Positions 25,097 to 64,000 of a stretch of 64,000 nt of DNA are shown here, one piece after another. The notes beneath the pieces were generated by a model, which ran no database searches, had not been told where the DNA came from, and saw only the letters and a list, made by a program, of their open reading frames with translations. Where the stretch lies: positions 62,001 through 126,000 of the IMG/VR virus record IMGVR_UViG_3300024326_000001; one strand, written 5' to 3'. Every line of letters begins with the position of its first letter. Positions within the stretch are counted from its first letter, which is position 1. The stretch is from a virus. The position numbers and the translations under genes are program-made.

Positions 25097-25465
25097 ATGA
25101 AAACATTTTTTGAATACTTAAGCGAAGAGAATATAACTAAAGAGGAAATTACCCTTTTAGAAGAATCTCTGCAGTCAGAATGGACTGATGAATTAGAGCA
25201 AAAAGTAGATGCTGCTTTAGAAGAATTTACTAGACAGTATGCAAATGAAGATGGAACGTTTGATTTTGAAAGATTTAATGAGGAATTAACAAATGAAGGT
25301 TTCTTAGGTTCTATATTTGGTGGCCTTACAGGATTTGCTCTAGGTAAAACAATTGGTAAAACAGTTGCTAAAGTTCTAGGAATTCAGAAAGGTATTTTTT
25401 ACGATTTATTAACCTCAAGATTAGTTGGCGCTGGATTAGGTGCGGCTATCGGAAAATCATTCTAA
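25097..25465 (+). CDS. Small glycine-zipper protein with a capsid-targeting-like N-terminus
   Basis: A 122-residue protein starting MKTFFEYLSEE, which resembles the N-terminal capsid-targeting peptides of T4 internal proteins (for example MKTYQEFIAEA) and carries an L-S-E cleavage-type motif ending at Glu10. The middle is strongly acidic and helical. The last 50 residues form a Gly-rich amphipathic or hydrophobic tail with GxxxG spacing (GFLGSIFGGLTGFALGKTIG and GAGLGAAIGK), a pattern that inserts in or perturbs membranes. It sits behind a GATATATA motif. I infer a packaged, possibly membrane-active protein; no family is recognised. Confidence 0.55.
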   Translation: MKTFFEYLSEENITKEEITLLEESLQSEWTDELEQKVDAALEEFTRQYANEDGTFDFERFNEELTNEGFLGSIFGGLTGFALGKTIGKTVAKVLGIQKGIFYDLLTSRLVGAGLGAAIGKSF

Positions 25466-30780: not shown

Positions 30781-32907
30781 ATGGCACAAGTTAATAAAAT
30801 TTCTTCATTTAAATCGTTTACAGAGATTAGAAAACAGGAATCTGTTAGTAAACTTAGAGAAGAAAACAATTTAAAAAGACAAGAATCAGTTGGTAAAATA
30901 GCTGCTATTCTAGATGAATTAGGATTAACTTCTTTCGAAGGTTTAGAAGAAGATCAGAAAGAATCAATTATCTCAAAAATATTTGGAGATGTTTCAGAAG
31001 AAGAAATAGCTGAAATAGAAGTAGAGGTAGAAGATGTTACTGCATCAGAAGAAGTTACTGAATCAGACGAACCAAAGTGTACTAATAAAAAAGGACATTT
31101 ATATAAGCAAATTGACAAGGACGGAACGGTAGAATGCGTACACTGTGGTCTAAGAAATTCATTAAGCGAATCTTTAGTTACTGAAGCTAAGACCGTTACT
31201 AAAGCAGCAATTGAAGAAATTGGTGATTTTAGAGACAGTGAAGGATATTCTTCTAATCAATACTATATACTAGCTGACTTCATTGATGGAGAAATCACTA
31301 TGAAAGATCTTTCAAAATTAGTAAAGTCTAAAGAAGTACAAAAAGAATTAAAGGGAGAAGATGAAATCGATATGGAACATATTGAAGAATTTTCAGAATC
31401 TTTAGTTACTGAAAAAGCTAAATTTAAAGTAGGAGATACTACTGAAAATTCAATTGGAAGCGAAGTTGAAATAATCGCTATCGATAATTGGAGAAAGATA
31501 TCAAAGCAATTTAAAAAAGAAATGGGATCAGATGCAGATTCATACGGATATGAAGATACTGCAAAGGGAGATTACTATCTTGCTAAAATTGTTAAAAGTG
31601 AAGAAGGTGATGAAGGTGATTTAGGTATATTCCCAGTTGAATACGATCACGCAAATTACTGGGGATTAGGAGAATCATTAATGAATGAGGCCTTAGATAT
31701 TAAATATAAAAGAGATGCAAAGAAAGTATTAACTCAATACAATAAAATATTTGCAGAACTAGGAAGCTTAACAGCTGATAAAATTTCTCACTTAGGAGCT
31801 ATTAAATATATTTACGCTGAAGCATTAACTGATGCTAATTTCCATAGAGAAAGAACAGCTACTGAAAAAATTATCAAAGGAAGATTAGGAAGTGTTACTG
31901 TTAATCCTTTAACTCTTGGTAAACAAGCTATTATAGTAGGAGCAAAGAAAATATCACAGATATTAGATGAGTATTATTCTAGAATTTCAAATGCTGCCGG
32001 ATGGTCAGGTATTGGAGTTGCTGAAGGCACTGCTCTATATTTAGAATCTATTGGTGAATCTAAACTTGCTGAAAAATTATTAGCAGGATTTAACGCAGTA
32101 GAAGAATCAGTTAAGTTTCAATTAACTGAAGAAGAAATTTCTTTAAAAGAATCTAAATTTAACGAAGTAATCAATTATGTAATTAATGAAGGAACTAGAG
32201 GTCAATTTGGTAAAATAGACAAGAAAGGAAATATTACTTCAGTATATACTCACTATGATTCATATCCTGAAAACATGTTGCCTATTATTAAATCAACCTT
32301 TAAAAGTGGTAAAAATGTAGATTTTGTTCTTAAAAATGGAGATAATTCAGGTTTAGATAAAGACGTTAAGAAAATTAATTTCTATGGCGGAGATGTTAAT
32401 CTGATGAAAGGTAATGTTAAGAATATTAACAAATATATTAAAGATGCAAATTACGAAGGTGGTGCAGAATTCGTTTATTTATGGGATGAAGGTTCTAAAA
32501 AATGGATGATGGCAGATATCTACGGAGAAACTGGATTAGTTCCAGCATTTGAATCAAATATTTATGAAGGTACTACTACATCTTTAGATGAATTTACAAC
32601 TGACACTAAAAGTTACTCAGGTGCTTTAGCATATTCTTTTAAGAATCATAAAAAGAATTTTGATAAAAATATTAAAGTAAGTGTTGCTCTTGGAGATAAG
32701 TTTAAATTTACAAATGAAAAAGGAGGTATTGTAATGCAAAGGTCTCATGGTCCTGAATTTGACACAGTATGGTTATCAGCTGATAAGAAAAAAGCTCAAA
32801 AAGTTGCAGATTGGCTTAAATCAGAAGGTGCTGAGATTGTTCTTTTCGGCCCAAAGACTAGATCATTTGTTGGTAGCAAAGAAGAATTTATCGATAGATA
32901 TTTATAA
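30781..32907 (+). CDS. Multi-domain polyprotein-like protein with repeated cleavage-type motifs and a zinc ribbon
   Basis: A 708-residue protein whose small domains are separated by near-identical motifs ending in (V/I/M)-x-E: SESLVTEA (Glu135), SESLVTEK (Glu211), GESLMNEA (Glu303), NYVINEG (Glu470) and ESNIYEG (Glu596). The first piece starts with an FKSFTEI segment and includes a zinc ribbon with Cys100, His106, Cys119 and Cys122 (ECVHCGL). The other pieces are unrelated small alpha/beta domains; the last (597-708) follows SLDEF. T4 prohead protease gp21 cuts after (L/I)-x-E, so these spacers look like processing sites. I infer a head-packaged precursor. The functions of the pieces are unknown. 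Confidence 0.6.
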   Translation: MAQVNKISSFKSFTEIRKQESVSKLREENNLKRQESVGKIAAILDELGLTSFEGLEEDQKESIISKIFGDVSEEEIAEIEVEVEDVTASEEVTESDEPKCTNKKGHLYKQIDKDGTVECVHCGLRNSLSESLVTEAKTVTKAAIEEIGDFRDSEGYSSNQYYILADFIDGEITMKDLSKLVKSKEVQKELKGEDEIDMEHIEEFSESLVTEKAKFKVGDTTENSIGSEVEIIAIDNWRKISKQFKKEMGSDADSYGYEDTAKGDYYLAKIVKSEEGDEGDLGIFPVEYDHANYWGLGESLMNEALDIKYKRDAKKVLTQYNKIFAELGSLTADKISHLGAIKYIYAEALTDANFHRERTATEKIIKGRLGSVTVNPLTLGKQAIIVGAKKISQILDEYYSRISNAAGWSGIGVAEGTALYLESIGESKLAEKLLAGFNAVEESVKFQLTEEEISLKESKFNEVINYVINEGTRGQFGKIDKKGNITSVYTHYDSYPENMLPIIKSTFKSGKNVDFVLKNGDNSGLDKDVKKINFYGGDVNLMKGNVKNINKYIKDANYEGGAEFVYLWDEGSKKWMMADIYGETGLVPAFESNIYEGTTTSLDEFTTDTKSYSGALAYSFKNHKKNFDKNIKVSVALGDKFKFTNEKGGIVMQRSHGPEFDTVWLSADKKKAQKVADWLKSEGAEIVLFGPKTRSFVGSKEEFIDRYL

Positions 32908-32925
32908 TAAAAAATAAAAATAAAC

Positions 32926-32955
32926 TGACCTGGATTTTTCCGGGTCAAGTTTTTT
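32926..32955 (+). terminator. Rho-independent terminator
   Basis: TGACCTGG and CCGGGTCA form an eight-pair stem (one T-G pair) with a six-base loop of ATTTTT, followed by AG and six T. It closes the unit ending with the polyprotein-like gene. Confidence 0.8.
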
Positions 32956-32974
32956 AATTATATTAGCTATATAC

Positions 32975-34345
32975 ATGGAACTAAATAACAACTTTGTAGA
33001 TTTTATTCAACATCACGCAGATGCACAAGGCATGACCAGAGAGGAATATGTTGCACATTATATGAGTGAAAATAAGAGTAAAGTTTTATCATTTGACGAA
33101 TATATCGTTGAAAAATACAATACACTTAAAGAAGAATTAATCTTAGAAGGCGGTGCAGCTGGTCACATGTCTCATCCTTTCGATGAAAAAGATTTAACAT
33201 TCGCAGATTTTAAAAAGATCGTAACGTCCGGTCTTCAAGGAGAATTAAACTTTGAAGAGGTAGCCACTGAAAAAACAGACGGTCAAAATCTATTAGCAAC
33301 CGTAAAAAACGGAGTTACGATGTTTTCTAGAAATAAAGGTCAATTAATTAGTCCCGTTGATTTAGACGGTATTATAGAAATGTTTGAAAAGCATGAGGTA
33401 CCTTTAGTGCGAGAAACATACGTGTTTGCAGCTAAAGATCTAAATGAAGCTCTTCCAAAAATTAAAGATCAGTCCATATTTAATGACGGTAAAGATTTTA
33501 TAAATATAGAATTAATCTATTCTAAAAACCCAAATGTAATCTATTACGAAAGAGATGTTCTTCAATTTCACGATATTCAAGAAACTGATGGGAATGGTAA
33601 TATTACAGGATCTAGAAAAATAGCAGGAGAATTAGTCAAAGCTTTAAAGGAAGTAGATGCCGATGTTCAAAAGACATTTACAATAATTCCTCCTCAGATT
33701 TTAAAACTAGGTAAAGATATTAATTTTGATAAAAATCAAGCTAAATTTATAAAGCAGATTGAAAAATTAAGAGATCGTTATAACTTAACAGACGGTGACG
33801 AAGTTTCTAGATATCATGAAATGTGGTGGAGAGAAACAATAGATGCAAATTTCCCAGATTTACAACAAGACTATAAGGAAGGTTTATTATTAAGATGGGC
33901 TTATGGAGATAAAAAGTCTTTAAATATGAGATCACTTGCAAAGGAGATAGGAAAAGATGAAGCTGCTTCTGTTAAGAAATTTGACAAAGAAGATGTTAAA
34001 AAGAAATATAAAGAAAACATTAGACCGTTTGAAGATTTATTTTTAGAACTAGGGTCTATAATTCTTATGAATGCTTCTAATTTTGTAGCTGCAAATCCAG
34101 ACAAAGAGATGCAAAGACTACATAATCAAATTAGATCAGAATCTGAAAAGATCAAAAAAGATGGAAGCGTTACTCAGATCGAAAAGGTAATGAAAGAACT
34201 AGAGAGATTAGATAGAATTGGAGGAGTAGAATCTATCATACCAACTGAAGGAATAGTTTTTGTATATAAAGGAAAGACTATGAAACTAACAGGTACTTTT
34301 GCTGCTATCAATCAGCTGATGGGAATCATAAAGTACGGAAGATAA
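32975..34345 (+). CDS. RNA/DNA ligase-like nucleotidyltransferase with a capsid-targeting-like leader
   Basis: A 456-residue protein. Motif I of the covalent nucleotidyltransferase superfamily is EKTDGQN with Lys100 as the likely AMP acceptor, followed by SRNKGQ. Motif IV is TEGIVF (Glu425) and motif V KLTG (Lys437). The GHMSHPFDE segment before motif I is shared with a phage ligase-like family I know only as putative RNA ligases. Residues 1-58 are not part of the enzyme: SFDEYIVEK (Glu46) and EELILEGG (Glu58) look like prohead-protease sites, so the catalytic part may be released after cleavage. Motif III is less clear. The substrate (RNA or DNA) cannot be told. Confidence 0.7.
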   Translation: MELNNNFVDFIQHHADAQGMTREEYVAHYMSENKSKVLSFDEYIVEKYNTLKEELILEGGAAGHMSHPFDEKDLTFADFKKIVTSGLQGELNFEEVATEKTDGQNLLATVKNGVTMFSRNKGQLISPVDLDGIIEMFEKHEVPLVRETYVFAAKDLNEALPKIKDQSIFNDGKDFINIELIYSKNPNVIYYERDVLQFHDIQETDGNGNITGSRKIAGELVKALKEVDADVQKTFTIIPPQILKLGKDINFDKNQAKFIKQIEKLRDRYNLTDGDEVSRYHEMWWRETIDANFPDLQQDYKEGLLLRWAYGDKKSLNMRSLAKEIGKDEAASVKKFDKEDVKKKYKENIRPFEDLFLELGSIILMNASNFVAANPDKEMQRLHNQIRSESEKIKKDGSVTQIEKVMKELERLDRIGGVESIIPTEGIVFVYKGKTMKLTGTFAAINQLMGIIKYGR

Positions 34346-34355
34346 ATAATATAAT

Positions 34356-36227
34356 ATGGCACTTAAAAAACTAAGACAAGTATTTCAGGAAACTAATATC
34401 AATGCATTTCAAGATATGTTGAATAGCAGGGTTCTAGTAACTGAAAAAATACAAGGAGCTTCATTTCACGTTAGAAGAAACCAGACTAAATTTGAATATT
34501 ACAAATCTGGAGATTCTAGAATGAACATGATAGACAGAACAATAGTAGGTTTATATGAAACAGGTGTCAAGCACATCCAAAGTTTAGATCCTAGTATAAA
34601 GGAACAAATGCCACATGATTGGAAATTTGGTTTTGAATATTTACCTGAATTAAACGTGTCAGAATATAAATATACTAAACTACCTAAAAACAATTTAATA
34701 CTTACGCACATTCAAACTATGAATGAGTCAGGTAAGATTAGAAAAACAATTAGCGATCCAATTATATTAAATAAATGGGCAAAGATATTAGAGGTTCAAG
34801 GACCTAGCATTGTGTTTGATGGTATGCTATCTCAAATGCAAAAAGAAGAATTAATAAGTGTTTTATCTATGTCAGATAAGGAGTTTTCTGAAGCATTTGA
34901 TTATGATCCAAATACAGATGCAAGATTACCTTTCACTCAAAAGATGATTAAGACATTTAATCCAAATGCAGTTTCTCCTACGTTAAATGAAGACTTTGAA
35001 GTAGAAATTGACGGATTAATAGTTTCTTTTATTGATGAGAAAAAATCTAGATCTTTTAAATTAGAAGATTTTACAAGAACTGTTAGTGAAAATAAGAGAT
35101 CAAGCCACATGTATCAAATTACTATTGCTGGTCTTATTGAATTTATTTCTACATTTGAAATGAAAGACATTCAACTAAATGAAGAAACAGCAGACTGGAG
35201 ATATATTGAATTAATGTCAGTGATGTTTAATACGTATGTTAAAGAACACTCTGCTAAGTTTATTGGTGTTAACTTTGAATCAGCTGATTTTGCAGATTCA
35301 GATTCCTTTAAACTAAATACTAAATACATTAAGAACGAGACCACTCTTTCTTATGTTGAAAACGAAATACTTGCAGAATTATTTAAAATAACTTTAGGTT
35401 CTTTTAGAAAAAAGAGAAGCAAGGAAAGCGATATCATAAATGCAGAAATGTTAGAGCATTTAAATCAAATAGTAGAAACTATAGATAAGAAAGTATTTGT
35501 AGAGAATACCGATGAAAATTCCATATACGACTTTAATAATTTCATATTACATAATAAAGTAAAGACAAGTGTTAATTTAAATGAAGCACTTAAAGTAGAT
35601 CATCCTGAACAAGGAGGAGAATTAGTAAATATGTTTGTTGGTAGATTCCAACCATTTACACTTGGACATGCTAAAGTATTAGAAACTATACACAAAGAAA
35701 ATGGATATCCTGTGGTTGTTTTATTAGTAAAAGCAAAGAATAAGAAAAAGGAAGATGCATTTAAAAGACCTTATGATGAGAAGACACAATTAGATATGTT
35801 TAAGGCGGTTCAAAAACAATATCCATTCTTAAAAGAAATCTTTGTAATTCCAACCGGAGGTATTGATACAATGTTCAATGCAATGAGACCAACTTATGAA
35901 CCCGTATTATGGGGAACAGGAAGCGATAGAATGAAAACTTACGGATTCCAAGTAAATAAAGATTCTTATAGAGAAGATCTTGGAGTTAGGAGTGATTTTG
36001 GATTATTTGAAATTCCAAGAACAGACAATAATATTTCAGCGACTCAGGTTAGAAACGCAATGCTAGACGGAGATGAAGGATTATTTAAGTCAACAACACC
36101 CAAAGCATTACATAAAATGTATGGCGAACTTAAGAAAAAATTAGAAGATTCAGTAGGTACTTCAGAATCAAATGAAGTTGCTGAATCATTATTAACATTT
36201 AAACAATTTTTAGAAAACAATGGATAG
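34356..36227 (+). CDS. Fusion of an RNA ligase-like domain and an NMN adenylyltransferase-like domain
   Basis: A 623-residue protein. Residues 1-240 form a ligase-like nucleotidyltransferase: motif I TEKIQGASF with Lys31, motif III-like WKFGFEYL, motif IV EIDGLIVSF at 217-225 and motif V SFKL. A helical linker follows. Residues 426-600 are a cytidylyltransferase-fold domain with GRFQPFTLGH and NISATQVR (559-566), the nucleotide-binding signatures of NadM-type nicotinamide-nucleotide adenylyltransferases, which make NAD+ from NMN and ATP. Exactly between the two lies SVNLNEAL, a cleavage-type motif ending at Glu410. The C-terminus ends in ESLLTFKQFLENNG. The domain assignments are good. Whether it is cut, and the true substrates, are unknown. 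Confidence 0.75.
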   Translation: MALKKLRQVFQETNINAFQDMLNSRVLVTEKIQGASFHVRRNQTKFEYYKSGDSRMNMIDRTIVGLYETGVKHIQSLDPSIKEQMPHDWKFGFEYLPELNVSEYKYTKLPKNNLILTHIQTMNESGKIRKTISDPIILNKWAKILEVQGPSIVFDGMLSQMQKEELISVLSMSDKEFSEAFDYDPNTDARLPFTQKMIKTFNPNAVSPTLNEDFEVEIDGLIVSFIDEKKSRSFKLEDFTRTVSENKRSSHMYQITIAGLIEFISTFEMKDIQLNEETADWRYIELMSVMFNTYVKEHSAKFIGVNFESADFADSDSFKLNTKYIKNETTLSYVENEILAELFKITLGSFRKKRSKESDIINAEMLEHLNQIVETIDKKVFVENTDENSIYDFNNFILHNKVKTSVNLNEALKVDHPEQGGELVNMFVGRFQPFTLGHAKVLETIHKENGYPVVVLLVKAKNKKKEDAFKRPYDEKTQLDMFKAVQKQYPFLKEIFVIPTGGIDTMFNAMRPTYEPVLWGTGSDRMKTYGFQVNKDSYREDLGVRSDFGLFEIPRTDNNISATQVRNAMLDGDEGLFKSTTPKALHKMYGELKKKLEDSVGTSESNEVAESLLTFKQFLENNG

Positions 36228-37299
36228 GTACGATTTTGAAAGAGCACTACATAGTGCTGCAAAAACCAACGCTGAAAATGAAGCGTTAATTATAGAATCC
36301 TATATTGGAGTTGCAACGACCGGAAGTAAATCTGCCCAACAGAATTTATTTAATTCAATTAATAGAACATTTAAAAAGAATAAGTGTCCATGGCAAGGTG
36401 TTAAGTTTACTTCAACACAGGATGTTAAACAACAACCTGATGGCAGGTTATGGCTTTCTAAAATGGATGACGATACATTCGGAGTAGTTTTTCAATATTT
36501 AATGTTAAATAAAAGCGAAGCAAACGAATTGTTTAATATTGGAAGAGACGATAATGGAATTGGTGCTGGAGAAATAATGCTAGCGTATATTGTAGAAAAT
36601 ATAAAAATAGGTGGAGGTGCGGCCGATACTGACTTAGAATTATATAATGAAAGGTGGTCACCAATTAAACCACCCCTTGGTAAATGTGAGTTAAAAGAAG
36701 CTCAAATGTCAAAGGGCATGTTACAAAATTGGAGAACAGGTGCAAAACACCAGGGAATTAATAGTACTTATGTACCGAAGTTAACGGCATTATATGACGC
36801 AGTAAAATATAATATTGAAGAAATCAACCCGGACGGAGATGGTAAAGATATGGCTGCCGGTGGAGGTTGGATAAATGAATGGGGAACTGTAGGTGGAAAA
36901 AGATTTAAGCATATTCAAAATTTAACTAAGACAGATATTCAGGCCCTTTCTTCTAGTGAAAGAGATTTTAAAATAGGTCCTGGAGATAAAGATAACGGCG
37001 CATTAGTAATTAAATTTAATGACGTAGAATTAGGAAAGCTAAGTGACTCTAAAACTGCAGAAAAAATTAAAAGTATAATAGAGACTGAGCCTTCCGTTAG
37101 AACATTTACTGAAATACAAGACGATGTAATTTCAGCAGTAGGAGATATACCTACTCCATTCCTTTTTATAGAGTCTAAAGATCATGAAATAGTAGCTTTT
37201 CACTATTACAAGAAATTACCTGGAAAAACTAGCGAATTACAAATATATTCTATTACACAAGGTAAATTTAAATATAAAATAAAGCCTAACCGAGTTTAA
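36220..37299 (+). CDS. PD-(D/E)xK nuclease-like protein of unknown role
   Basis: A 359-residue protein whose start overlaps the ligase-NMNAT stop by eight bases. Residues 114-160 contain GIGAGEIMLAYI (Glu118), then GGGAADTDLEL (Asp136 and Asp138), then KCELKEA (Glu157-x-Lys159). That order of Glu, Asp and E-x-K is the layout of PD-(D/E)xK nucleases. The N-terminus carries ENEALIIES, which may be another cleavage-type motif. The C-terminal half is beta-rich without named motifs. With the two ligase-like genes upstream it could act on nucleic acid ends. The nuclease call is inference from residue spacing. Confidence 0.45.
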   Translation: MDRYDFERALHSAAKTNAENEALIIESYIGVATTGSKSAQQNLFNSINRTFKKNKCPWQGVKFTSTQDVKQQPDGRLWLSKMDDDTFGVVFQYLMLNKSEANELFNIGRDDNGIGAGEIMLAYIVENIKIGGGAADTDLELYNERWSPIKPPLGKCELKEAQMSKGMLQNWRTGAKHQGINSTYVPKLTALYDAVKYNIEEINPDGDGKDMAAGGGWINEWGTVGGKRFKHIQNLTKTDIQALSSSERDFKIGPGDKDNGALVIKFNDVELGKLSDSKTAEKIKSIIETEPSVRTFTEIQDDVISAVGDIPTPFLFIESKDHEIVAFHYYKKLPGKTSELQIYSITQGKFKYKIKPNRV

Positions 37300-37319
37300 A
37301 TAAACAAATACAAATAAAA

Positions 37320-40300
37320 ATGAGCACTAAAAAAACATTCGAAAGCTTTGTAAATTCAATGAACGAAAACGTTGATTTATATAAAGTATACAAAAAGGTT
37401 TCTGGGAAATATTCCTTGAGAAAGCCTTCTTATTGGGGAGATCTATTTAACCAAAGAGCTTCTATTCCATATAGAGAATTAACTAAATATGATAAAGAAT
37501 TACATTCCTTAGACGTATACACTACTAAAGAATTAGGATGTCATAACGAATATCCATTACAATCTAACTTTAAAGTTCAAGTGCCACAGGTATTTGTATT
37601 ATATTGTAACACTGAATCAGGTGAGCTTGGAGAGTATTATGGAATGAGTATTCTTGTAAATACAGAAGGAGCAACATATCCAAGATATGCATGTGGTATG
37701 CCAGATTTCGAACCAGAATTACATAACTTTGTAAATGGAATTCCTGAAAGCTATTTAAACATTGTAACGACTGGTGCTCAATTGTTACATGAACAGATGA
37801 TAGTTGAAGGTCAATTTTCATGGCTTACATCCGATACAAACACACAAATAGGTTCTGAAAGACAGAACATGATTACAGTATTTATGTATGATAATATGGG
37901 TAACAAGTGGACGGAAAAGGATTATGAAGGATATGGTGAATTTGGTGGAATGGATTATTATGATCTTGTTGCTACAATGAATGGATATACTGAAGAAGAT
38001 GTTAAAACAATGAAAGGTTCATTTAAAGAATTAAGACAACTTGGTATTGATTTAGCATTCGGTAAAATAAAGACCAAAGATAAAAAGAAAAAGACATTAT
38101 TCCCTGCATTAGTTGAAGATCCAAGATTTAATTGGAAAAGACATGACTTTACTGAAGAAGCAGAATCTGATCCAAATCAATCATGGTATCAAGAACCTGA
38201 GTATGATGATTATGAAGATGATGACGATTACGAAAACGGATGGTATGAATCAAAGGTTACTGAAGCCAAAAAGCTTACAATTAAAGATGTTGAAAAGGCA
38301 TGGGATTTTTCTTATGGTGAAGATTTTGAATATGAATATGGTAGTGTCTATGTTGAAATCATGGGAAAATATAAAGGTAAAATTACTAAAGATGAATTAG
38401 CTAAAATATGGGACGACAAGTATGGTGAAGATTTACAAAGTGAACATGGTGGATTCTTTGATAAGCTAGACGAAAATTTAAATGAAGCTACTGTAGTAAT
38501 GGATGCAATAGATCCTAAATCAAAAACACTCAAAAAGCTTTTAAAGAAATATAATGTTAAAATGAAAGTTTTAACAATGAACGGCCCTGGTGGCAATTGG
38601 CCAGAAGTTGAAATGACAGGTTCAAGAGAAGATTTACAATCAGTATTAGCCGATCCTAATGGATGGGACGATCCTGAATTAGGAGAATACATTGAAGAAT
38701 CTAATATATTAGAAGCTAGATCTATTAACAAGATTTCAAAGGAATTTGGAGAAACAGTTAATAAGATGAAAGATATTGTAAAGATATACATCGCTGCGGA
38801 AGATGGAAGTGATGAGAAAGCAGCAACTAGACAGCAGCTAATAGATTTAACAGCAAAAAAGAAAGCTCTTACAAATGAACTAGATGATGCAGTAGCTGGT
38901 AAAAACAAAGATGTAAAATTAGTTATCAGTGAGGGTGTTATGTCTGACATTCACCAAATGATAGGTAATCACAAATCATTTGATACTTTTCAGAAAGAAT
39001 TCTTTAAAGAATACGGACATAAGAAAGTAATGAAGAAAACTCCAGAGTTTTTAGAATGGTTAAAGGCACTATATAATGATTTTGAATATACGTCAGGTGA
39101 AGCTGTTGAAGAAAGGTATACTAAAAAGTCATTATTAAAAAAATTAGGAGATGCAGATGATGCAATGATTCAAACCGGAAACGGAAAAGAATATATCATT
39201 TATAATCCTGATTCTAATAACGATGACAATGCTGCAATGTGGCATGATAAATCAGTATTTGCACTAGATCAAGACGGTGGAGAGCATGAAATAGCATATA
39301 AGGATATAGGGCTAGTAATGGTAGAATCAGCAGTTAATGAAGATGTGTATGCAGACTTAGAAGACACTATTTCTAATATGGAATTTGATGCATATCAAAA
39401 CTTAGCATCTGAATTTGGTATAGATGCTGAAGATCCCAACGAAATGATGGACTTTATTCAAAATGAACTTGACAAGAAGGGTGCTAAACTCTTAATCAAG
39501 AACATTGAAAAAGGAGTTTATGAATCATTAGTTAATGAAAAGGACGACGCCGGTGACCACTTAGATAATCTTGCAGATTTAGTAGGTAAAGCTAAAGATT
39601 TCTTTGCAATCGGTAAAGAATTAAAAGCAGGTAAATACAAATACGACTATAGTGATAGTATGATGCCAATGTATACGATAAAAGCAGATGGTTTTAAATT
39701 TGCAATACTTAACAAAAGATATGTTGACGGCGGCGATAGAGAAGTTGGAGAGATTGCTATTGGCCTAATGGAATCAATGGTTATTGAAGCTAAGGGTTTT
39801 AAAAACGATGAAGATTTCGAAGAATTTTTAAAAGAAATCGATGCTATGCCAGAAAGAGCAGTTAGAAAGATAATGGGTAAAGAATATATCGATACTCCTG
39901 GTTTTTATCAAGATGAAAAAGACAATTATGATGATGTAATTGACTTCATGATTTCAAACATGGGTGCAAATATTTATCACCAATTAGAACAGTGGTGGGA
40001 ATTAAACGTAATGAAACCGGGTCTTAGAGAATCTAAAATTCAAATAAAAAGAAGATATACCGATAATCATCCTGCACAAACTTCAGGTAGAACTGCTAAA
40101 GTCAGAAACGCAATGATCGAGGCATTAGCGGATGGTGTATTAACAGAAGAAGAATTCAATAATATTCTAAAAGAAAAATCAATCGATAATAAAAGATGGA
40201 TGAGAAGAAATTCTAAATACTTTACAGTAAGTGAAAATGGAATTGGTCTTTCTAAATTTGGAAAAAGAATATTAACTGGAATTAAACCAGTTGTTAGTTT

Positions 40301-40538
40301 AACATTAGAATCTTTTATTAACGAAGCTAATTATATTAAATTTAAAGGAAAGAAAGTAGATATTAGTTCATTAGAAATGGAAGATGTTGATATGAAAGAT
40401 TATCCAGATTTCACAGATGCATTCTTTAGTTATGGTGAATATTCTAATGGAAAAGAAATGACTGACGAAGAATTATCAGATTTCACAGATGATAATCCAG
40501 ACTTAGCTAATGAATTAGCACATGATTCCTTACATTAA
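37320..40538 (+). CDS. Large polyprotein-like protein with about nine cleavage-type motifs
   Basis: A 1072-residue acidic protein built from short domains divided by the same motif class. Candidate cuts fall after Glu16 (SMNE), Glu315 (ESKVTEA), Glu389 (ENLNEA), Glu465 (ESNILEA), Glu538 (VISEG), Glu674 (ESAVNED), Glu740 (ESLVNEK), Glu823 (ESMVIEA) and Glu1002 (ESFINEA). The pieces would be about 60-300 residues. The N-terminus (KKTFESFVNSMNE) looks like a capsid-targeting peptide. An Asp/Glu/Tyr-rich patch at about 290-310 separates the first domain. I recognise no catalytic domain in any piece. The likely role is a precursor of several packaged proteins, by inference. Confidence 0.6.
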   Translation: MSTKKTFESFVNSMNENVDLYKVYKKVSGKYSLRKPSYWGDLFNQRASIPYRELTKYDKELHSLDVYTTKELGCHNEYPLQSNFKVQVPQVFVLYCNTESGELGEYYGMSILVNTEGATYPRYACGMPDFEPELHNFVNGIPESYLNIVTTGAQLLHEQMIVEGQFSWLTSDTNTQIGSERQNMITVFMYDNMGNKWTEKDYEGYGEFGGMDYYDLVATMNGYTEEDVKTMKGSFKELRQLGIDLAFGKIKTKDKKKKTLFPALVEDPRFNWKRHDFTEEAESDPNQSWYQEPEYDDYEDDDDYENGWYESKVTEAKKLTIKDVEKAWDFSYGEDFEYEYGSVYVEIMGKYKGKITKDELAKIWDDKYGEDLQSEHGGFFDKLDENLNEATVVMDAIDPKSKTLKKLLKKYNVKMKVLTMNGPGGNWPEVEMTGSREDLQSVLADPNGWDDPELGEYIEESNILEARSINKISKEFGETVNKMKDIVKIYIAAEDGSDEKAATRQQLIDLTAKKKALTNELDDAVAGKNKDVKLVISEGVMSDIHQMIGNHKSFDTFQKEFFKEYGHKKVMKKTPEFLEWLKALYNDFEYTSGEAVEERYTKKSLLKKLGDADDAMIQTGNGKEYIIYNPDSNNDDNAAMWHDKSVFALDQDGGEHEIAYKDIGLVMVESAVNEDVYADLEDTISNMEFDAYQNLASEFGIDAEDPNEMMDFIQNELDKKGAKLLIKNIEKGVYESLVNEKDDAGDHLDNLADLVGKAKDFFAIGKELKAGKYKYDYSDSMMPMYTIKADGFKFAILNKRYVDGGDREVGEIAIGLMESMVIEAKGFKNDEDFEEFLKEIDAMPERAVRKIMGKEYIDTPGFYQDEKDNYDDVIDFMISNMGANIYHQLEQWWELNVMKPGLRESKIQIKRRYTDNHPAQTSGRTAKVRNAMIEALADGVLTEEEFNNILKEKSIDNKRWMRRNSKYFTVSENGIGLSKFGKRILTGIKPVVSLTLESFINEANYIKFKGKKVDISSLEMEDVDMKDYPDFTDAFFSYGEYSNGKEMTDEELSDFTDDNPDLANELAHDSLH

Positions 40539-40540
40539 AA

Positions 40541-40548
40541 GATATATA
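40541..40548 (+). promoter_or_regulatory. GATATATA motif, candidate late promoter
   Basis: The octamer starts two bases after the preceding stop codon, in a 34-base gap, 24 bases before the next ATG. Position and spacing match those at 9701, 18085, 25064 and 63491. Confidence 0.4.
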
Positions 40549-40572
40549 CTATTATAAACAAAACAATATAAA

Positions 40573-41907
40573 ATGAAACTATATACTAACTTCGATAATT
40601 TTATCAATGAAGCAAAGGTTATGAAGCAGAAAGATACTGCTAAAATAGCAAAAAAATTAGCAGCTGCTCTTTCAAAAGCAGACGGAAAAGAATTCACAAT
40701 TTCTAAAAATTCATTAGATTCCGGTGGTTTTGATCTAGATATGGATGGAGACGAATATGCAGGAGGAACTTATTTTATTGGTGATGCTGGTGAAATAGTA
40801 AACGCAGCAACACATAATGATGTATATGGTCACATGGACGATAGCGAAGCTGAATTAGTTAAAACAATTAAAAAGGGTAAATTTGCAAAATACAGAGCAA
40901 CTGAATCTTTAGAACTTAATGAAGCTCTAGCTTCTTCCAAGTTAAGAGGATTAATAGACATCAAAAAAGGTGGTAAGGAATTAATTAAAGGTATATACGG
41001 TCTTGCTAAAGTAGCACTAGATAAAGTTACCGATGATATGATAATTTCTAATAGCAACCCAGTTGAAGTTTATAAGAAAGCAAAAACATTCGGAAACGTA
41101 ATTGTATTTTGGATTTCTAGAAATGAAAAAGAAAATGAATATGCTCCTTCTTCCGGAAGATATGTTGAAATGATTCCTGGAAATTGTTTATTAGCTGTTT
41201 CTAATGGAAAAAATGAAATGTTTCAGAACGATTCAATATGGAATAGAAACAGCGACACAATAGGTGGTAAGAAAAACACAAGAAGACTTAAGAACATGGG
41301 TAAATACCCTGGATCTAAAGATACTGTCGGTGTTAACAAATCACACAACCAATATAGTGGAACGGGATTAGGTAACATTAAAAGAATTGCGGAAATGTCT
41401 GACGAATGTTACATTATTAATTTAGACACATTAAGAGCTTCTTTATCTACCGATGATAAGACATCTGCAAGAGCAGAGGCAAAATCTGGAGCTACTGCAC
41501 TTACAAACCCTAAGAAAATCAAAGAGGATAACTTAACAAGGTATAACGATATTCTTGCGAAGAAAGCTGATAACCCAGATAAAATAGACAAGAAAGTTAA
41601 AGAAATTATCGAAGATGCACACCAATTCTTAATGGCTGGTTTAGCTAAAAAAGAATTAGGAAACTATAACGAATTAACAATAGGAAAAGACCCTAAAGGA
41701 AGAGAAATTAGACCTAGAGATTTAACCAATTATATTGCAAATATATTGTCAGATTATCAAGGATATGTTTCAGCATACGTTAATATGAAAACTGAAGAAG
41801 AAAAATTCGGTTCATCAAGTTCTTGGTATATGAGAGATGCTAAGCGTAAAGCACTAGAGCTTAAGCAAAGAATGGCTAAATGGGATAATAAAAACATAGT
41901 TTGGTAA
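40573..41907 (+). CDS. Putative packaged head protein with capsid-targeting-like N-terminus
   Basis: A 444-residue protein starting MKLYTNFDNFINEAK, with Glu13 as the likely prohead-protease cut, close to the T4 internal-protein leader. A second motif, ESLELNEA ending at Glu117, would separate a first domain (14-117, with an acidic DLDMDGDEYAGG segment) from a basic second domain. The latter (118-444) has a conserved-looking core (GNVIVFWISRNEKENEY) and a Lys/Arg-rich C-terminus. It could be a toxin-like or host-takeover domain, but no family is recognised. Its stop is one base before the next ATG. Confidence 0.55.
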   Translation: MKLYTNFDNFINEAKVMKQKDTAKIAKKLAAALSKADGKEFTISKNSLDSGGFDLDMDGDEYAGGTYFIGDAGEIVNAATHNDVYGHMDDSEAELVKTIKKGKFAKYRATESLELNEALASSKLRGLIDIKKGGKELIKGIYGLAKVALDKVTDDMIISNSNPVEVYKKAKTFGNVIVFWISRNEKENEYAPSSGRYVEMIPGNCLLAVSNGKNEMFQNDSIWNRNSDTIGGKKNTRRLKNMGKYPGSKDTVGVNKSHNQYSGTGLGNIKRIAEMSDECYIINLDTLRASLSTDDKTSARAEAKSGATALTNPKKIKEDNLTRYNDILAKKADNPDKIDKKVKEIIEDAHQFLMAGLAKKELGNYNELTIGKDPKGREIRPRDLTNYIANILSDYQGYVSAYVNMKTEEEKFGSSSSWYMRDAKRKALELKQRMAKWDNKNIVW

Positions 41908-41908
41908 A

Positions 41909-42226
41909 ATGAAAAAAGTAAAATTATTTGAACAATACATTAATGAATCAGCTATCGATTTATTAGCAGATGAAATAGAAGATGCAAAAGCATTTGATGC
42001 GTTTTCAGATGGACAATCAGTTCAAGCAAGATCTACTAAAAAAACATGGGACGATGGTGTTCCAGTTTTAAAGTATATTGCTAGAGCTCCAAAAAAATCT
42101 GTTAAATTACCTAAGAAATTTAAAGTAGTAGACGACACTAAATATGGATGGTGGTATTTACAAGTATCAGGAGTATGGTATGGCATCGAACAAGATGATT
42201 ATGGAACTCCACCATTTGAATATTAA
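41909..42226 (+). CDS. Small putative packaged protein with capsid-targeting-like N-terminus
   Basis: A 105-residue protein starting MKKVKLFEQYINESA, a near match to the other leaders with the cut expected after Glu13. The mature part would be about 92 residues, basic in the middle (KSVKLPKKFK) and Trp/Tyr-rich at the end (YGWWYLQVSGVWYGIEQ). Size and leader are comparable to T4 internal proteins I-III, which are about 90-190 residues, though the sequence is otherwise unlike them as far as I can see. Function unknown. Confidence 0.55.
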   Translation: MKKVKLFEQYINESAIDLLADEIEDAKAFDAFSDGQSVQARSTKKTWDDGVPVLKYIARAPKKSVKLPKKFKVVDDTKYGWWYLQVSGVWYGIEQDDYGTPPFEY

Positions 42227-42229
42227 GAT

Positions 42230-44101
42230 ATGGAATTAAACGAAAACGAAAACTTATCACTTGGCGATATGGCCGGAATGGGAGAAGTCTCTTTACCATC
42301 TGAAACATCAGTTGGATCAGGGGATATTCCAGCCGGAAAAGGAGATGCCGAAGAAGAGTATAAGAAGAAGAGAAATAAAAAGAAACAACGCGAAATGAAA
42401 AACATTATATCATTTGAATCTTTCGGATCACTTGATGAAGGTAAAACAATATCTTCTTCTAAAATATCTATGATGGGTGCAAGAGTTCTTAATAAAATTA
42501 GCATCGGTACTATATTTGATACAGAAGATGGAAACTATGAAATTACGGATTATGGCCGACAGGCAAATGCATTTAAAGAATTTGAAGCAGAACATAATGG
42601 TAAAAAAGTAAAGGTAAAATTAACTGCAATGTATGGTGTTAAGTTAGAAGTAACTGACGATGTACGCAGCGCTAGATTTAATAAAGAAGTAAAGCTAAAT
42701 TCTATTATTTTAGAATCGGTTAATGAAGGTAAGTTTGACGGTATTGCAGATTTAGTAAAATCTTTACATTTTGAAATGGATCCTAAAACTGCCGAAGAAA
42801 AGAAGATTGAAATAGGTTACAGACAAGGAGAAGTAACAAAGCGTAAACAAATTGAAGGTGGTAATTATTCACTAAGAAGATTCAGAAAAGAAATTAAATA
42901 TTGGGACGGTAATAAAAGAGATCAAGAATGGGCAGAAGGCGTATTTGCTGGTCCAGACCATTATAATACTGTAAAGTCAACATTAGGAGCTGGTCCTCAT
43001 AAGAAAGCTGTTAAGAAAGTAAGATGGACTCAAAGGAAATATGACCAATGGTTAGAAGACGTTGCATCAAACGACGGTTGGAAGAATGCCTATGATATGG
43101 CACAAAACGCCCAATTCGAACCAGGTCTTATTGATTGGGTTGAGAAAAACTTTAGAGGTGATGATCCAATGCAAAGAATCCAATGGGATATTGAAGCATT
43201 TGCAGAATCAACATCCACTAAACTGACTCATTTAAAATCTATTAATGAAGATGTTATTTTAGATAAAGAAACAGATGATGAAATATTCGATTCAGAAACA
43301 TACTATACAATAAGTAAGGTTTTAGCTATTGCTAGAAAATCTAAAGAATGTAAAGAAGCATACAAAAGAGAATCTAACTTCGGTAATGGTTTACAAATGG
43401 CTGAACGTTTAAAAAAGGAATTTCCAAAAATTCAATTCAAATGTAGAGTTTATAGATCAGAATGGAATTATGGAGGTAACTTATGTTTGAGCATTGAGCT
43501 TCGAGGAAAATCATGGAAACATGAAGTATTTAAGTTTCAGTCTAACAACTCAACGCGTAAACCTAATTATTCATTTGCAAAATTATTCAATGGAACCAAA
43601 AAAGTATCAACTGGAAAGGTAGAAGATGATTGGGGTATGGGAACTGTACATGGTTCTTATCAATCTATTTCTAGCTTTGATAAATTTATGGATGATGTAG
43701 TTGGAGTTTTCAAAGATTACAAAAGAGTAAACGGAGTAGAATTTGACATGAAAACTATCCTAGCAGGTTTTAAAGCTAATGATAAAATATTAGCCGAATG
43801 GACTAGATTAAAGCCAAGAATCGAAAAGCAATATGACATCGCAAAGGCAAGCGGAAGAAAAGCACATAGAAGAATAGAATTAAGAATGCCTTATATTAGA
43901 ACGGCTGAAAAGAAAGTTTATTATAAGACTGACGAGCCAAGAGAATTAAGACATCCTGATGAATATGGAGAAAGCGCTTATAATATTATAGATGGAAGAG
44001 ATTACGCTAAGTACGAAGCTGCTCAAGCTAAGGTTTCAGATATGATTGAAAAGTTTTGTAAGAAACATAACTTTGAATTTGTATGGGCTGCTAGCTGGTA
44101 A
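42230..44101 (+). CDS. Putative packaged polyprotein with an N-terminal GSGD-type extension
   Basis: A 623-residue protein. Residues 1-55 are a Gly/Ser/Glu segment (GDMAGMGEVSLP, then VGSGDIPAGKGD) ending in a run of Lys and Arg. Then Met56 starts MKNIISFESFGSLDEG, which is itself a capsid-targeting-like leader with a cut after Glu70. The ATG at 42395 may therefore be an alternative start. Further motifs are ESVNEG (Glu166) and KSINED (Glu340). The mature pieces are basic, and the last (341-623) holds many aromatic residues and ends FVWAASW. No catalytic family is recognised. A strong terminator follows. Confidence 0.55.
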   Translation: MELNENENLSLGDMAGMGEVSLPSETSVGSGDIPAGKGDAEEEYKKKRNKKKQREMKNIISFESFGSLDEGKTISSSKISMMGARVLNKISIGTIFDTEDGNYEITDYGRQANAFKEFEAEHNGKKVKVKLTAMYGVKLEVTDDVRSARFNKEVKLNSIILESVNEGKFDGIADLVKSLHFEMDPKTAEEKKIEIGYRQGEVTKRKQIEGGNYSLRRFRKEIKYWDGNKRDQEWAEGVFAGPDHYNTVKSTLGAGPHKKAVKKVRWTQRKYDQWLEDVASNDGWKNAYDMAQNAQFEPGLIDWVEKNFRGDDPMQRIQWDIEAFAESTSTKLTHLKSINEDVILDKETDDEIFDSETYYTISKVLAIARKSKECKEAYKRESNFGNGLQMAERLKKEFPKIQFKCRVYRSEWNYGGNLCLSIELRGKSWKHEVFKFQSNNSTRKPNYSFAKLFNGTKKVSTGKVEDDWGMGTVHGSYQSISSFDKFMDDVVGVFKDYKRVNGVEFDMKTILAGFKANDKILAEWTRLKPRIEKQYDIAKASGRKAHRRIELRMPYIRTAEKKVYYKTDEPRELRHPDEYGESAYNIIDGRDYAKYEAAQAKVSDMIEKFCKKHNFEFVWAASW

Positions 44102-44168: not shown

Positions 44169-44561
44169 ATGGACAAGATGAGATTCGCATTAATTGCGCA
44201 CGATAACAAAAAAGCAGACATGGTAGCATTTGTATCTAAGAGATTAGATTTCTTTAACAGTGATGCAGTAGACATAGTTACCACAGGAACTACGGGGAAA
44301 AAGGTAGAGCATGCTGGAATTGATAGAGTTTCTACTGTTCAAAGTGGTCCTCTAGGTGGAGATGCTGAAATAGCGGCAATGGTAGTTAGAGGAGAAATCA
44401 CAGGCGTAATATTCATGAGAGACCCTCTAGATAAACATCCACATGATGTAGATATATCAATGCTAATGAGACTTTGCGATGTCCATGACATCCCCTTGGC
44501 TACCAACTACAGCACTGCAAGTATTCTTATCAAGTGGTATAGATCTAAATATAAAATATAA
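44169..44561 (+). CDS. mgsA: Methylglyoxal synthase
   Basis: A 130-residue enzyme that converts dihydroxyacetone phosphate to methylglyoxal and phosphate. Family signatures are all visible: ALIAHDNKK (His11), TTGTTG at 38-43 for phosphate binding, SGPLGGDAEIA with catalytic Asp65, and DKHPHDVDISML with His92 and Asp95, then IPLATN. It is slightly shorter than E. coli MgsA (152). It stands alone behind a terminator and begins the metabolic block. A start at the second Met (44178) is also possible. The family is clear. Its use by a phage, perhaps redirecting host glycolysis, is inferred. Confidence 0.9.
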   Translation: MDKMRFALIAHDNKKADMVAFVSKRLDFFNSDAVDIVTTGTTGKKVEHAGIDRVSTVQSGPLGGDAEIAAMVVRGEITGVIFMRDPLDKHPHDVDISMLMRLCDVHDIPLATNYSTASILIKWYRSKYKI

Positions 44562-44579
44562 ACAATTTAGTTTTTTTAA

Positions 44580-44588
44580 GTATAATAC
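44580..44588 (+). promoter_or_regulatory. GTA(T/G)AATA-type motif, candidate promoter
   Basis: GTATAATAC lies just before the ATG at 44592 and after a run of seven T. It is related to the motifs at 47679, 49543 and 54571. The distance to the start is only a few bases, so it may instead be chance AT-rich sequence. Confidence 0.25.
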
Positions 44589-44591
44589 AAT

Positions 44592-44837
44592 ATGGATAAC
44601 ATTATCTTCAGACCCGAAAACTTTAACACATGGTCAATTCAAGCGATAGAGAAAATCGAAACTGTGATTGATTCATGTTCTAGTCTTTCCCATCTAGATG
44701 GAGCTAGAAAATTAGTTGATAACTTTACTATCATCACTGCACTTGAAGAAGATGATGAAAAATCTATTGAAATAATTATTCACCAGTTGTGGCTCAGAAT
44801 TAAGTTACAAGAAAATAAAATAAATGGATCAAAATAA
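44592..44837 (+). CDS. Small acidic helical protein of unknown function
   Basis: An 81-residue ORF with ATG in an A-rich context. It overlaps the next gene by 14 bases. It is predicted helical, with WSIQAIEKIETVID and an ITALEEDDEKSIEIIIHQLWLR stretch. No motif is recognised. Its coupling to the cytidylyltransferase gene suggests a shared transcript. Confidence 0.5.
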   Translation: MDNIIFRPENFNTWSIQAIEKIETVIDSCSSLSHLDGARKLVDNFTIITALEEDDEKSIEIIIHQLWLRIKLQENKINGSK

Positions 44838-45318
44838 AGGTAAAATAGGATTTACAGCAGGGAACTTCGATCTTCTTCACCCTGGATATATTTACACATT
44901 CGAAACAGCAAAAGAACACTGTGATTACTTTATGGTATTTCTGCAAAGAGATCCTTCGGAAACTAGATTTACTAAATACAAGCCAGTAATTCCATTATAC
45001 GAAAGATATAAAACTTTAATGGCTATTAAATACGTAGACGAAGTAGTTACATATCAAACAGAAGAAGATCTTATTAACTTAATGGAATTTTATAAACCAG
45101 ATGTTAGAATTTTAGGAGATGATTACATTGGTAAAAGATTCACAGGAGATCACATGCCAATTGAGGTTATTTATACAACTAGATCACATAATTGGTCTAC
45201 GACAAGAATTAAAGATTTAATAACTAAGCAAACCATCTTACAGAATCCTTCTATTATAGAAGAAAACGTAAAGTCATTAACAGCTGATGAAGCGGCTAAA
45301 ATAATTAATAACAAATGA
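44824..45318 (+). CDS. Cytidylyltransferase-like protein (TagD/glycerol-3-phosphate cytidylyltransferase family)
   Basis: A 164-residue protein with the N-terminal signature GNFDLLHPGYI at 13-23 and WSTTRIKDLI near 124-133, the two nucleotide-binding motifs of this family. The HxGH position reads HPGY, so the last His is replaced by Tyr. Such enzymes join a nucleotide to a phosphorylated polyol or sugar; the substrate cannot be told here. It overlaps the next gene (RmlB-like) by four bases, so a nucleotide-sugar route is likely. Confidence 0.75.
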   Translation: MDQNKGKIGFTAGNFDLLHPGYIYTFETAKEHCDYFMVFLQRDPSETRFTKYKPVIPLYERYKTLMAIKYVDEVVTYQTEEDLINLMEFYKPDVRILGDDYIGKRFTGDHMPIEVIYTTRSHNWSTTRIKDLITKQTILQNPSIIEENVKSLTADEAAKIINNK

Positions 45319-63525: not shown

Positions 63526-64000
63526 ATGAATAATAAAATCTTAAAATACGATCAGTATTTAAATGAAGCTATGAAAACGGGTTCAATAGAACTTGTAAAT
63601 CCTTCTCTAAATAAAGCAGCTACGATAATCGCAAGATTTGTAAATAAGAAAACAAAGAAGGACTTTAAAAAGTTTCCATTTGAAATGATAACTGATATGG
63701 GTTCTGGAGTAATGTTTTACTCAAGTAAAGGTACAGAGGCATTTATGGTAACTCCCGCTGCTGCAAAAAACCCTGGTATTGTAGGTTCTATAATCTATTT
63801 CTCAGATGCAGCAGACGCTAAATCTGATTTTTCTATTTCATCTGAAACATTCCCAATTGTTAAATTAGTTGGAGAATTCGTTAGATTAATGGATAAAAAA
63901 TACGTTGCATCTATACAAGAGTCAATGTTATTAGAAAGAAGAACTAAAAGAGCATTCTCTAAAGAAGAAATTAAAATGATCGAGGCTAAATTAGCAGCTG
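63526..64000 (+). CDS. N-terminal part of a putative packaged head protein
   Basis: At least 158 residues, running off the window end. It begins MNNKILKYDQYLNEAM, with a likely cut after Glu14, the same leader type as at 40573 and 41909. An internal IQESMLLERRTK near residue 130-142 is another cleavage-type motif (LLE). The first domain (15-130) looks like a compact alpha/beta domain (FKKFPFEMITDMGSGVMFYS). No family recognised. Confidence 0.55.
   Translation, partial: MNNKILKYDQYLNEAMKTGSIELVNPSLNKAATIIARFVNKKTKKDFKKFPFEMITDMGSGVMFYSSKGTEAFMVTPAAAKNPGIVGSIIYFSDAADAKSDFSISSETFPIVKLVGEFVRLMDKKYVASIQESMLLERRTKRAFSKEEIKMIEAKLAA

Follow-up and report, generated by a model that had tools for sequence, protein, structure and literature searches.

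The closest described systems are those of phages that package proteins in the head together with their DNA. In T4 the internal proteins IPI, IPII and IPIII are accessory bodies behind a shared leader that is cut by gp21, an S77 protease encoded in the same genome, and mutants of IPIII separate residues 4 and 7, which matter for targeting, from residues 8 and 10, which matter for processing (PMC9026906, available part). T4 Alt, a packaged and injected enzyme, is processed at both termini, and the available part of the same source mentions no C-terminal targeting sequence for it. The phiKZ-type phages such as SPN3US hold a large set of head proteins which a prohead protease cuts after Glu (PMC10052503, available part), and the multidomain polyvalent proteins of phages and conjugative elements, which are thought to be packaged and delivered, have been likened to the polyproteins of RNA viruses (Iyer et al. 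2017; PMC5512222, available part). Here we describe a stretch of 64,000 nucleotides of virus DNA (the window; bases 62,001-126,000 of the 176,577-base record IMGVR_UViG_3300024326_000001, possibly a fragment), in which a block of eight genes at 30781-44101, named below by their first base, encodes proteins with T4-type leaders and with repeated sites of the prohead-protease type. From sequence comparisons we consider it probable that the proteins of the block are packaged as cargo in a T4-type head, where a tag would dock them and the head protease would split them, and that they are then delivered.

As in the T4 internal proteins, the leaders keep the same positions, an S77 protease is present in the genome and accessory bodies follow the shared leader. 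Unlike them, the block proteins comprise many modules each with intervening sites, include enzymes among the predicted cargo, carry tags at internal and C-terminal positions as well, and yield predicted segments of which half are acidic. The C-terminal element here has the sequence of the N-terminal leader, in contrast to what is described for Alt. With the polyvalent proteins the block shares several unrelated domains per polypeptide in shuffled order (blastp, module clusters); release is there ascribed to embedded zincin-like peptidases (PMC5512222), whereas the sites here match the head protease, and Pfam, which covers sequence families and which a remote fold could escape, detected no peptidase domain in the eight block proteins. 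SPN3US-type processing likewise involves several cuts within long propeptides, but differs in its motif (A-x-E) and in that 13 of 14 cuts remove N-terminal propeptides, and the available part of PMC10052503 describes no shuffled modules with shared tags. A search of the open-access literature (titles and abstract openings, with subscription papers outside its scope) returned no cargo polyproteins cut by a prohead protease and no C-terminal targeting tags, and modular cargo polyproteins and C-terminal tags with an upstream cut site are apparently new.

IMG/VR is rich in relatives of gene 32975, with 241 stretches confirmed and 80 retained, and 633 non-redundant proteins of 1593 were obtained from 83 loci (L005-L087) and the record's own open reading frames (ORFs). 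Leader-like N-termini occur in 86 of the 633, for example MKHIKLFEQFVNEA; their collection imposed positions P7, P3 and P1 and allowed F, Y, I or L at P4, where all 86 have F or Y. A profile was built on the 38 leaders left after a k-mer filter on the protein bodies, with window and T4 sequences excluded; some of these bodies are still homologous (several belong to the 25097 family) and many are unrelated. Scored at the first 40 start positions per ORF, the profile ranked ipIII, ipII and gp22 first among 66 ORFs of T4 (60-110 kb), and only these three exceeded 8 bits, the ipII and ipIII leaders scoring 15.1. When T4 gp23 (521 residues) was scanned whole, the top site was E65 (score 10.0), the position at which gp21 removes the 65-residue N-terminus (PMC9958956, available part). 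Single control stretches of crAss001 (48 ORFs) and Syn9 (63 ORFs) gave no score of 8 bits or more.

Eight of the 114 plus-strand ORFs in the last 114.6 kb of the record score above 10 bits, with the 99.9% level of shuffled sequences at 9.9: 41909, 88618, 40573, 25097, 63526, 37320, 112463 and 32975. The test is independent for T4 and not for 25097, 32975, 40573 and 41909, because the training set holds leaders of their homologues. The DNA ligase 112463 (outside the window; score 12.4), a candidate for tagged cargo of our own making, was dropped, as its apparent leader, F(V/I)EASN..SNSN, is shared by three diverged homologues and is part of the conserved ligase N-terminus. This leaves seven convincing leader genes of the 114, judged by sequence, six of them in the window (25097, 32975, 37320, 40573, 41909 and 63526). 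In these leaders the aromatic pair falls on T4 positions 4 and 7, an aliphatic residue on 8 and Glu on 10, so that they agree with the T4 capsid-targeting sequence at the four positions shown to be important by mutation (PMC9026906). The preliminary description had drawn this likeness to the T4 internal-protein leader, and its block of leaders and protease-like sites proved real, both in the leader profile and in motif counts against shuffles. Its list of leader genes stands for the six in the window and falls for 30781, which has an F-x-x-F tag at residues 10-13, no cleavable P3/P1 and a leader score of -1.0. The leader it had read from Met56 of 42230 is present as an internal one; since the part upstream of Met56 is conserved in relatives, the gene probably starts at 42230. 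Several leader proteins appear enzymatic, which would also suit tags addressed elsewhere, for instance to a replication compartment, with a mere resemblance to capsid targeting; this we regard as highly improbable, given that the profile, which had no T4 sequence in its training, retrieves proteins that T4 packages as well as a proven gp21 site, and that the conserved positions are those important for T4 targeting (PMC9026906).

The record belongs to a T4-type phage, whose genes for a portal, for an S77 prohead protease and for a major capsid protein of T4 type lie 4-10 kb beyond the window end. The protease, whose presence in the genome the earlier proposal had made a necessity, matches Peptidase_S77 (gp21-like) with E 8.3e-12, above the curated cut-off, and is also matched by the PHROG head maturation protease. 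The acidic part of its gene comprises 473 residues with a net charge of -81 and repeated Y-x-x-Y-LAE-like units; protease and scaffold are two genes in T4 and here apparently fused in one. Of 22 related records searched, 17 have an S77 protease; in nine of the 22, gene 32975 is nearly identical to that of this phage, and among the 13 others 8 have the protease. A capsid gene is present in seven records, including one of this phage, and in all seven the protein has I(N/T)E↓(A/S) at residue 26 (arrows mark predicted cuts). Candidate cut positions are this site and a later LYE↓D near residue 45.

Within the eight block genes (4390 amino acids) the pattern ES-x(1-5)-[IVLM]-x-E-[AGSK] occurs 14 times, against 0.74 in shuffled sequences, none of 500 shuffles having as many, and the simpler [IVL]xE[AGS] occurs 34 times against 14.9. 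In 98 other genes the longer pattern was found once (3.1 expected); another seven leader or head genes contain two copies against an expected 0.97, without enrichment. A profile of internal sites that was blind to the window gave, at 8 bits or more, 22 sites in the block genes and 25 in all other genes combined; the full profile gave 23 and 23, with 2.4 and 15.4 in shuffles. Chance or composition as a source of leaders and sites was ruled out by these shuffles. The longer pattern was devised only after inspection of these same proteins, and in a pattern count made with no prior expectation NEA (23 against 8.7) came only 40th in the list; the deciding test is therefore the alignment of relatives.

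For this purpose, blastp alignments were regarded as rearranged when they spanned at least 40 residues at no more than 92% identity, with both starts more than 35 residues into their proteins and positions differing by more than 40. An aligned [IVLMF]xE↓ lies near the start in 635 of 952 such alignments between relatives, compared with a mean of 131.7 and a maximum of 156 in 200 draws of interior positions from the same alignments. Boundary segments picked by [IVLMF]xE with no Pro next and at least two supporting alignments (241 distinct, not independent) have the consensus E-S-V-[V/I/L]-[N/T]-E↓[A/S/G], with A, S or G at P1' in 199 of 241, although only proline had been excluded there. Cutting the relatives' proteins at such sites gave 404 segments with a median of 112 residues in 127 clusters, 52 of which have at least two members; 29 of these 52 show at least two left contexts, an N-terminus counting as one context. 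The module named ATVV is represented by 24 copies in 10 left and 11 right contexts, protein ends included. By these alignments the sites clearly delimit modules that are reshuffled among relatives, and the internal motifs, first noticed at the edges of compact segments, were placed correctly. The ratio of nonsynonymous to synonymous substitution rates does not exceed 0.35 in 21 of the 23 pairs of modules compared (one pair at 1.16, one saturated; 5 of the 28 predicted block segments had no pair).

Such reshuffling would also be seen if the tags targeted the proteins to the head but the ES..xE motifs were uncut recombination seams or linkers and the long proteins were packaged whole, as the virion RNA polymerase of phage N4 is packaged unprocessed (PMC5512222). 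We hold this to be improbable, as the same P3-P1-P1' preference is found at the N-terminal leaders, at LILE↓GG of 32975, in the capsid N-terminal region and in the protease fusion, four kinds of place at which reshuffling plays no evident part, and as the start codon of stand-alone modules replaces the P1 Glu. In locus L086 the ATVV module opens its gene with M-ATVTMDA where 37320 has LNE↓ATVVMDA. Module 471-596 of 30781 matches PHROG 1987 (5.5e-12), its first residue aligning to profile position 2, and weakly resembles two 114-residue Streptococcus phage proteins, from YS387 and Javan123 (E 8e-4 and 4e-3 at roughly 26% identity), which begin M-ATKARIG and are aligned from residue 471 (INE↓GTRGQFG); protein 070 of Prochlorococcus phage P-SSM2, a weak match to the same module (E 8e-3, 30%), begins M-GTRSRIG. 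In these alignments the start Met of stand-alone modules seems to occupy the place of the P1 Glu.

Exact edges are also conserved within families. In 32975 and 10 homologues, E-G-G ahead of the conserved body is fixed despite a variable preceding stretch: E58, G59 and G60 are invariant in 11 of 11 aligned sequences, together with the KxDG, EG and Lys residues, which we take to be covalent nucleotidyltransferase/ligase motifs, and the homologue in LR756508 has an insertion right behind E-G-G. In the 34356 family the domain junction reads [L/I]xE↓(A/G)L in 7 of 8 aligned sequences and TFE↓AL in the distant member.

Targeting tag and cut site appear to be separable, so that the split made by mutation in T4 would recur here as natural variation. 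Among 25 N-termini of the 30781 family (26 rows, from which L027_13145 was removed as a different protein) both aromatics are present in 25, an aliphatic P3 in one and the P1 Glu in six. In the 34356 family the tag is C-terminal in 24 of 25 members; none of the 24 has Glu at P1, and in 19 of them [VLIM]xE↓[AS] lies no more than 18 residues upstream. Twenty-five of the 633 proteins have C-termini scoring at least 10 (99.9% shuffle level 10.0), namely 16 of the 34356 family, six of a family of about 150 residues, one further protein and two that look like chance. The family of about 150 residues is unrelated to the former and ends, like the one further protein, in a tag of the LLFEQFINKD type (six entries, one a 74-residue fragment; L038:2097-2555, with relatives in L039, L041, L042, L056 and L062). 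We lean slightly towards viewing the C-terminal tag, which has lost the Glu position of its own and is preceded by a cut site, as the mirror image of the T4 leader, within the joint reading as a delivery system that is set out next.

Leaders and sites fit one mechanism, docking by an aromatic pair followed by S77 release. An aromatic-x-x-aromatic tag, usually N-terminal and in some proteins internal or C-terminal, would dock the protein to the core of the prohead. Once the prohead has assembled, the S77 protease of the phage would cut behind [I/V/L]-x-E, removing the tag and splitting long proteins into modules, most of 40-150 residues and some of up to 457. Among those released would be the NMNAT-like and putative ligase domains. 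All or part of the modules would remain inside the head and pass into the host along with the DNA, like the T4 internal proteins and Alt, and could serve there in anti-defence or takeover. Tags, sites, the protease gene and the shuffling of modules at the sites are observed, and from them we infer that the proteins are packaged, cut and delivered and that they act in anti-defence or takeover. Beyond this, we give a little more credence than doubt to a general delivery system, in which one FxxF tag at any position loads interchangeable modules and the head protease frees them all; because the protease would release the whole tagged string, any module gained between two sites would be delivered at time zero.

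Several observations weigh against the cargo interpretation. T4 proteins cut at multiple sites are scaffold and mostly expelled, whereas the delivered ones lose terminal peptides (available part of PMC9026906). The cuts of seven block genes give 28 predicted segments of at least 30 residues, of which 14 have an isoelectric point (pI) of 5.0 or less and 7 of 8 or more, and some are long; mature T4 internal proteins have computed pI values of 9.0-9.7, and "small and basic" does not describe the block segments. Strong internal-type sites occur in genes without a known head role (5864 and 65790; Table 1). The 952 rearranged alignments are not mutually independent. In the structural model of 37320, which served for boundary positions only (alignment of 36 of 68 fragments, minus eight misaligned), six of eight sites lie within stretches of low confidence, which account for 36% of the part scored, a weak result from a poor model (predicted local distance difference test score, 53). 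The leader profile misses T4 ipI, gp67, gp68 and gp24 and gives 9.8 to E72 of T4 gp21, which is not known to be cut. No leader of 8 bits or more was found in stretches of Tenacibaculum phage PTm1 (49 ORFs), Microcystis phage Mel-JY01 (25) and LR756508 (19), and the system is therefore not general to all relatives.

Multi-site cutting, which is typical of T4 scaffold (PMC9026906), and the 14 acidic segments, which make half of the set acidic like gp22 and gp67, favour an alternative in which the block supplies scaffold for the prohead: its products would reach the core and be cut many times like T4 gp22, gp67 and gp68, and the pieces would leave before DNA entry instead of serving as delivered effectors; internal-type sites are also present in the protease-scaffold fusion of this phage and in adjoining head genes. 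Compared with acidic, multiply cut scaffold or core proteins, the block proteins have many predicted sites but mixed charge and several enzyme-like domains. We nevertheless judge this alternative unlikely. Some pieces look like enzymes (NMNAT-like, AAA ATPase, putative ligase), the modules vary widely and are shuffled, a whole protein of other phages resembles one of them, and this phage already has its acidic part fused to the protease. Enzyme-like domains, shuffling, stand-alone homologues and a separate scaffold-like part favour cargo.

Coordinates are collected in Table 1. The enzymatic part of the arsenal bears out the preliminary description in part. The NMNAT-like domain it had named is matched by PF01467 in 8 of 8 members of the 34356 family. 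For its ligases, 32975 has the nucleotidyltransferase motifs, but the family gave only a weak PHROG RNA-ligase match (E 0.009) in 1 of 11 members and 32975 gave none in a PDB search. Its possible nuclease found no such family match among the eight block proteins; a Pfam scan of these (E 0.01) returned CTP_transf_like alone, plus DUF6329 below the cut-off, and the remaining scanned modules gave no informative family match. An arsenal bigger than the few internal proteins of T4, as it had supposed, fits the seven leader genes and the 28 segments predicted. For the C-terminal module of 40573, which is conserved (residues 118-444; model mostly confident at 146-444, with low stretches at 221-239 and 304-309), there was no structural match in PDB (best E 0.19) or BFVD (best E 0.07), and no Pfam or PDB profile matched it significantly. 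Searches with tblastn of 40573 and two relatives' block-type proteins, and of 37320, against phage records gave no matches. Outside the block, 25097 has 18 non-redundant homologues in related loci, and 63526, whose AAA ATPase match lies below the Pfam cut-off, has homologues in 3 of 9 records, the leader being retained at 88% and 61% identity.

Table 1. Predicted features of the block, the other leader genes and the protease (arrows, predicted cuts; aa, amino acids; L002 entries lie past the window end)
Feature	Coordinates	Strand	Details
Putative cargo polyprotein A, 708 aa	30781..32907	+	Predicted cuts after E94, E135, E211, E303, E470, E596
Nucleotidyltransferase-like (putative ligase), putative cargo protein	32975..34345	+	Leader VLSFDEYIVE, residues 37-46 (33083-33112); second site LILE↓GG after E58 (33148)
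Predicted two-domain polyprotein	34356..36227	+	Domain 1-410, LNE↓AL cut, NMNAT-like 411-610, VAE↓S cut, C-terminal tag (36186-36224)
359-aa protein in block, without clear leader	36220..37299	+	A single candidate site, IIE↓S (residue 26)
Putative cargo polyprotein B, 1072 aa	37320..40538	+	Leader KKTFESFVNSMNE; predicted cuts after E16, E315, E389, E465, E538, E674, E740, E823, E904, E1002
Putative cargo protein	40573..41907	+	Leader LYTNFDNFINE↓A with its cut after E13; a second cut, LELNE↓A, behind E117
Putative small cargo protein	41909..42226	+	Leader KKVKLFEQYINE↓S, 92-aa module behind
Putative cargo protein, internal leader	42230..44101	+	From Met56 (42395): IISFESFGSLDE↓G after E70; cut ESVNE↓G after E166
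Leader protein	25097..25465	+	MKTFFEYLSE↓E; Gly-rich hydrophobic C-terminus behind LTNE↓G
AAA-type ATPase (putative)	63526..64000, extends beyond window end	+	Leader KILKYDQYLNE↓A, internal site ESMLLE↓R
S77 protease, 675 aa	L002:6183-8207, just past window end		Long acidic scaffold-like part included
Strong internal-type site, residue 30 of gene 5864	5864-9679		12.6 bits
Strong internal-type site, residue 86 of ORF at joined position 65790	L002:1790-2542		12.2 bits

Three leader or FxxW proteins (window 25097-25465, L003:4618-5061 and L002:9926-11308) have, by eye, a hydrophobic Gly-rich stretch; these look as if they might be packaged membrane-active peptides. In Microcystis phage Mel-JY01 (L006:11243-13162) an NMNAT-like and a 32975-type domain are found in one protein, with the joint IIAE↓GGLGGH. 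Directly behind the block, window 44169-46244 holds an MGS-like domain (PF02142) and, by eye, cytidylyltransferase-like and sugar-nucleotide dehydratase-like genes.

Among 969 matching phage records, the closest relative of the capsid protein is that of an uncultured 462-kb phage (52%), followed by those of Prevotella Lak phages (about 38%), with PTm1 (32%) ranking 20th. Relatives of its capsid gene point to hosts among the Bacteroidota. The lineage appears to be a widespread marine group of T4-type phages that infect bacteria. If the proposed system is true, this lineage would evolve its injected arsenal by swapping modules between protease sites, in the manner of RNA-virus polyproteins, and the C-terminal tags suggest a further route for loading phage heads. 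Each module between two sites would then predict both a delivered protein and the N-terminus it should have, and such modules would provide a search rule for still unrecognised early takeover and anti-defence proteins.

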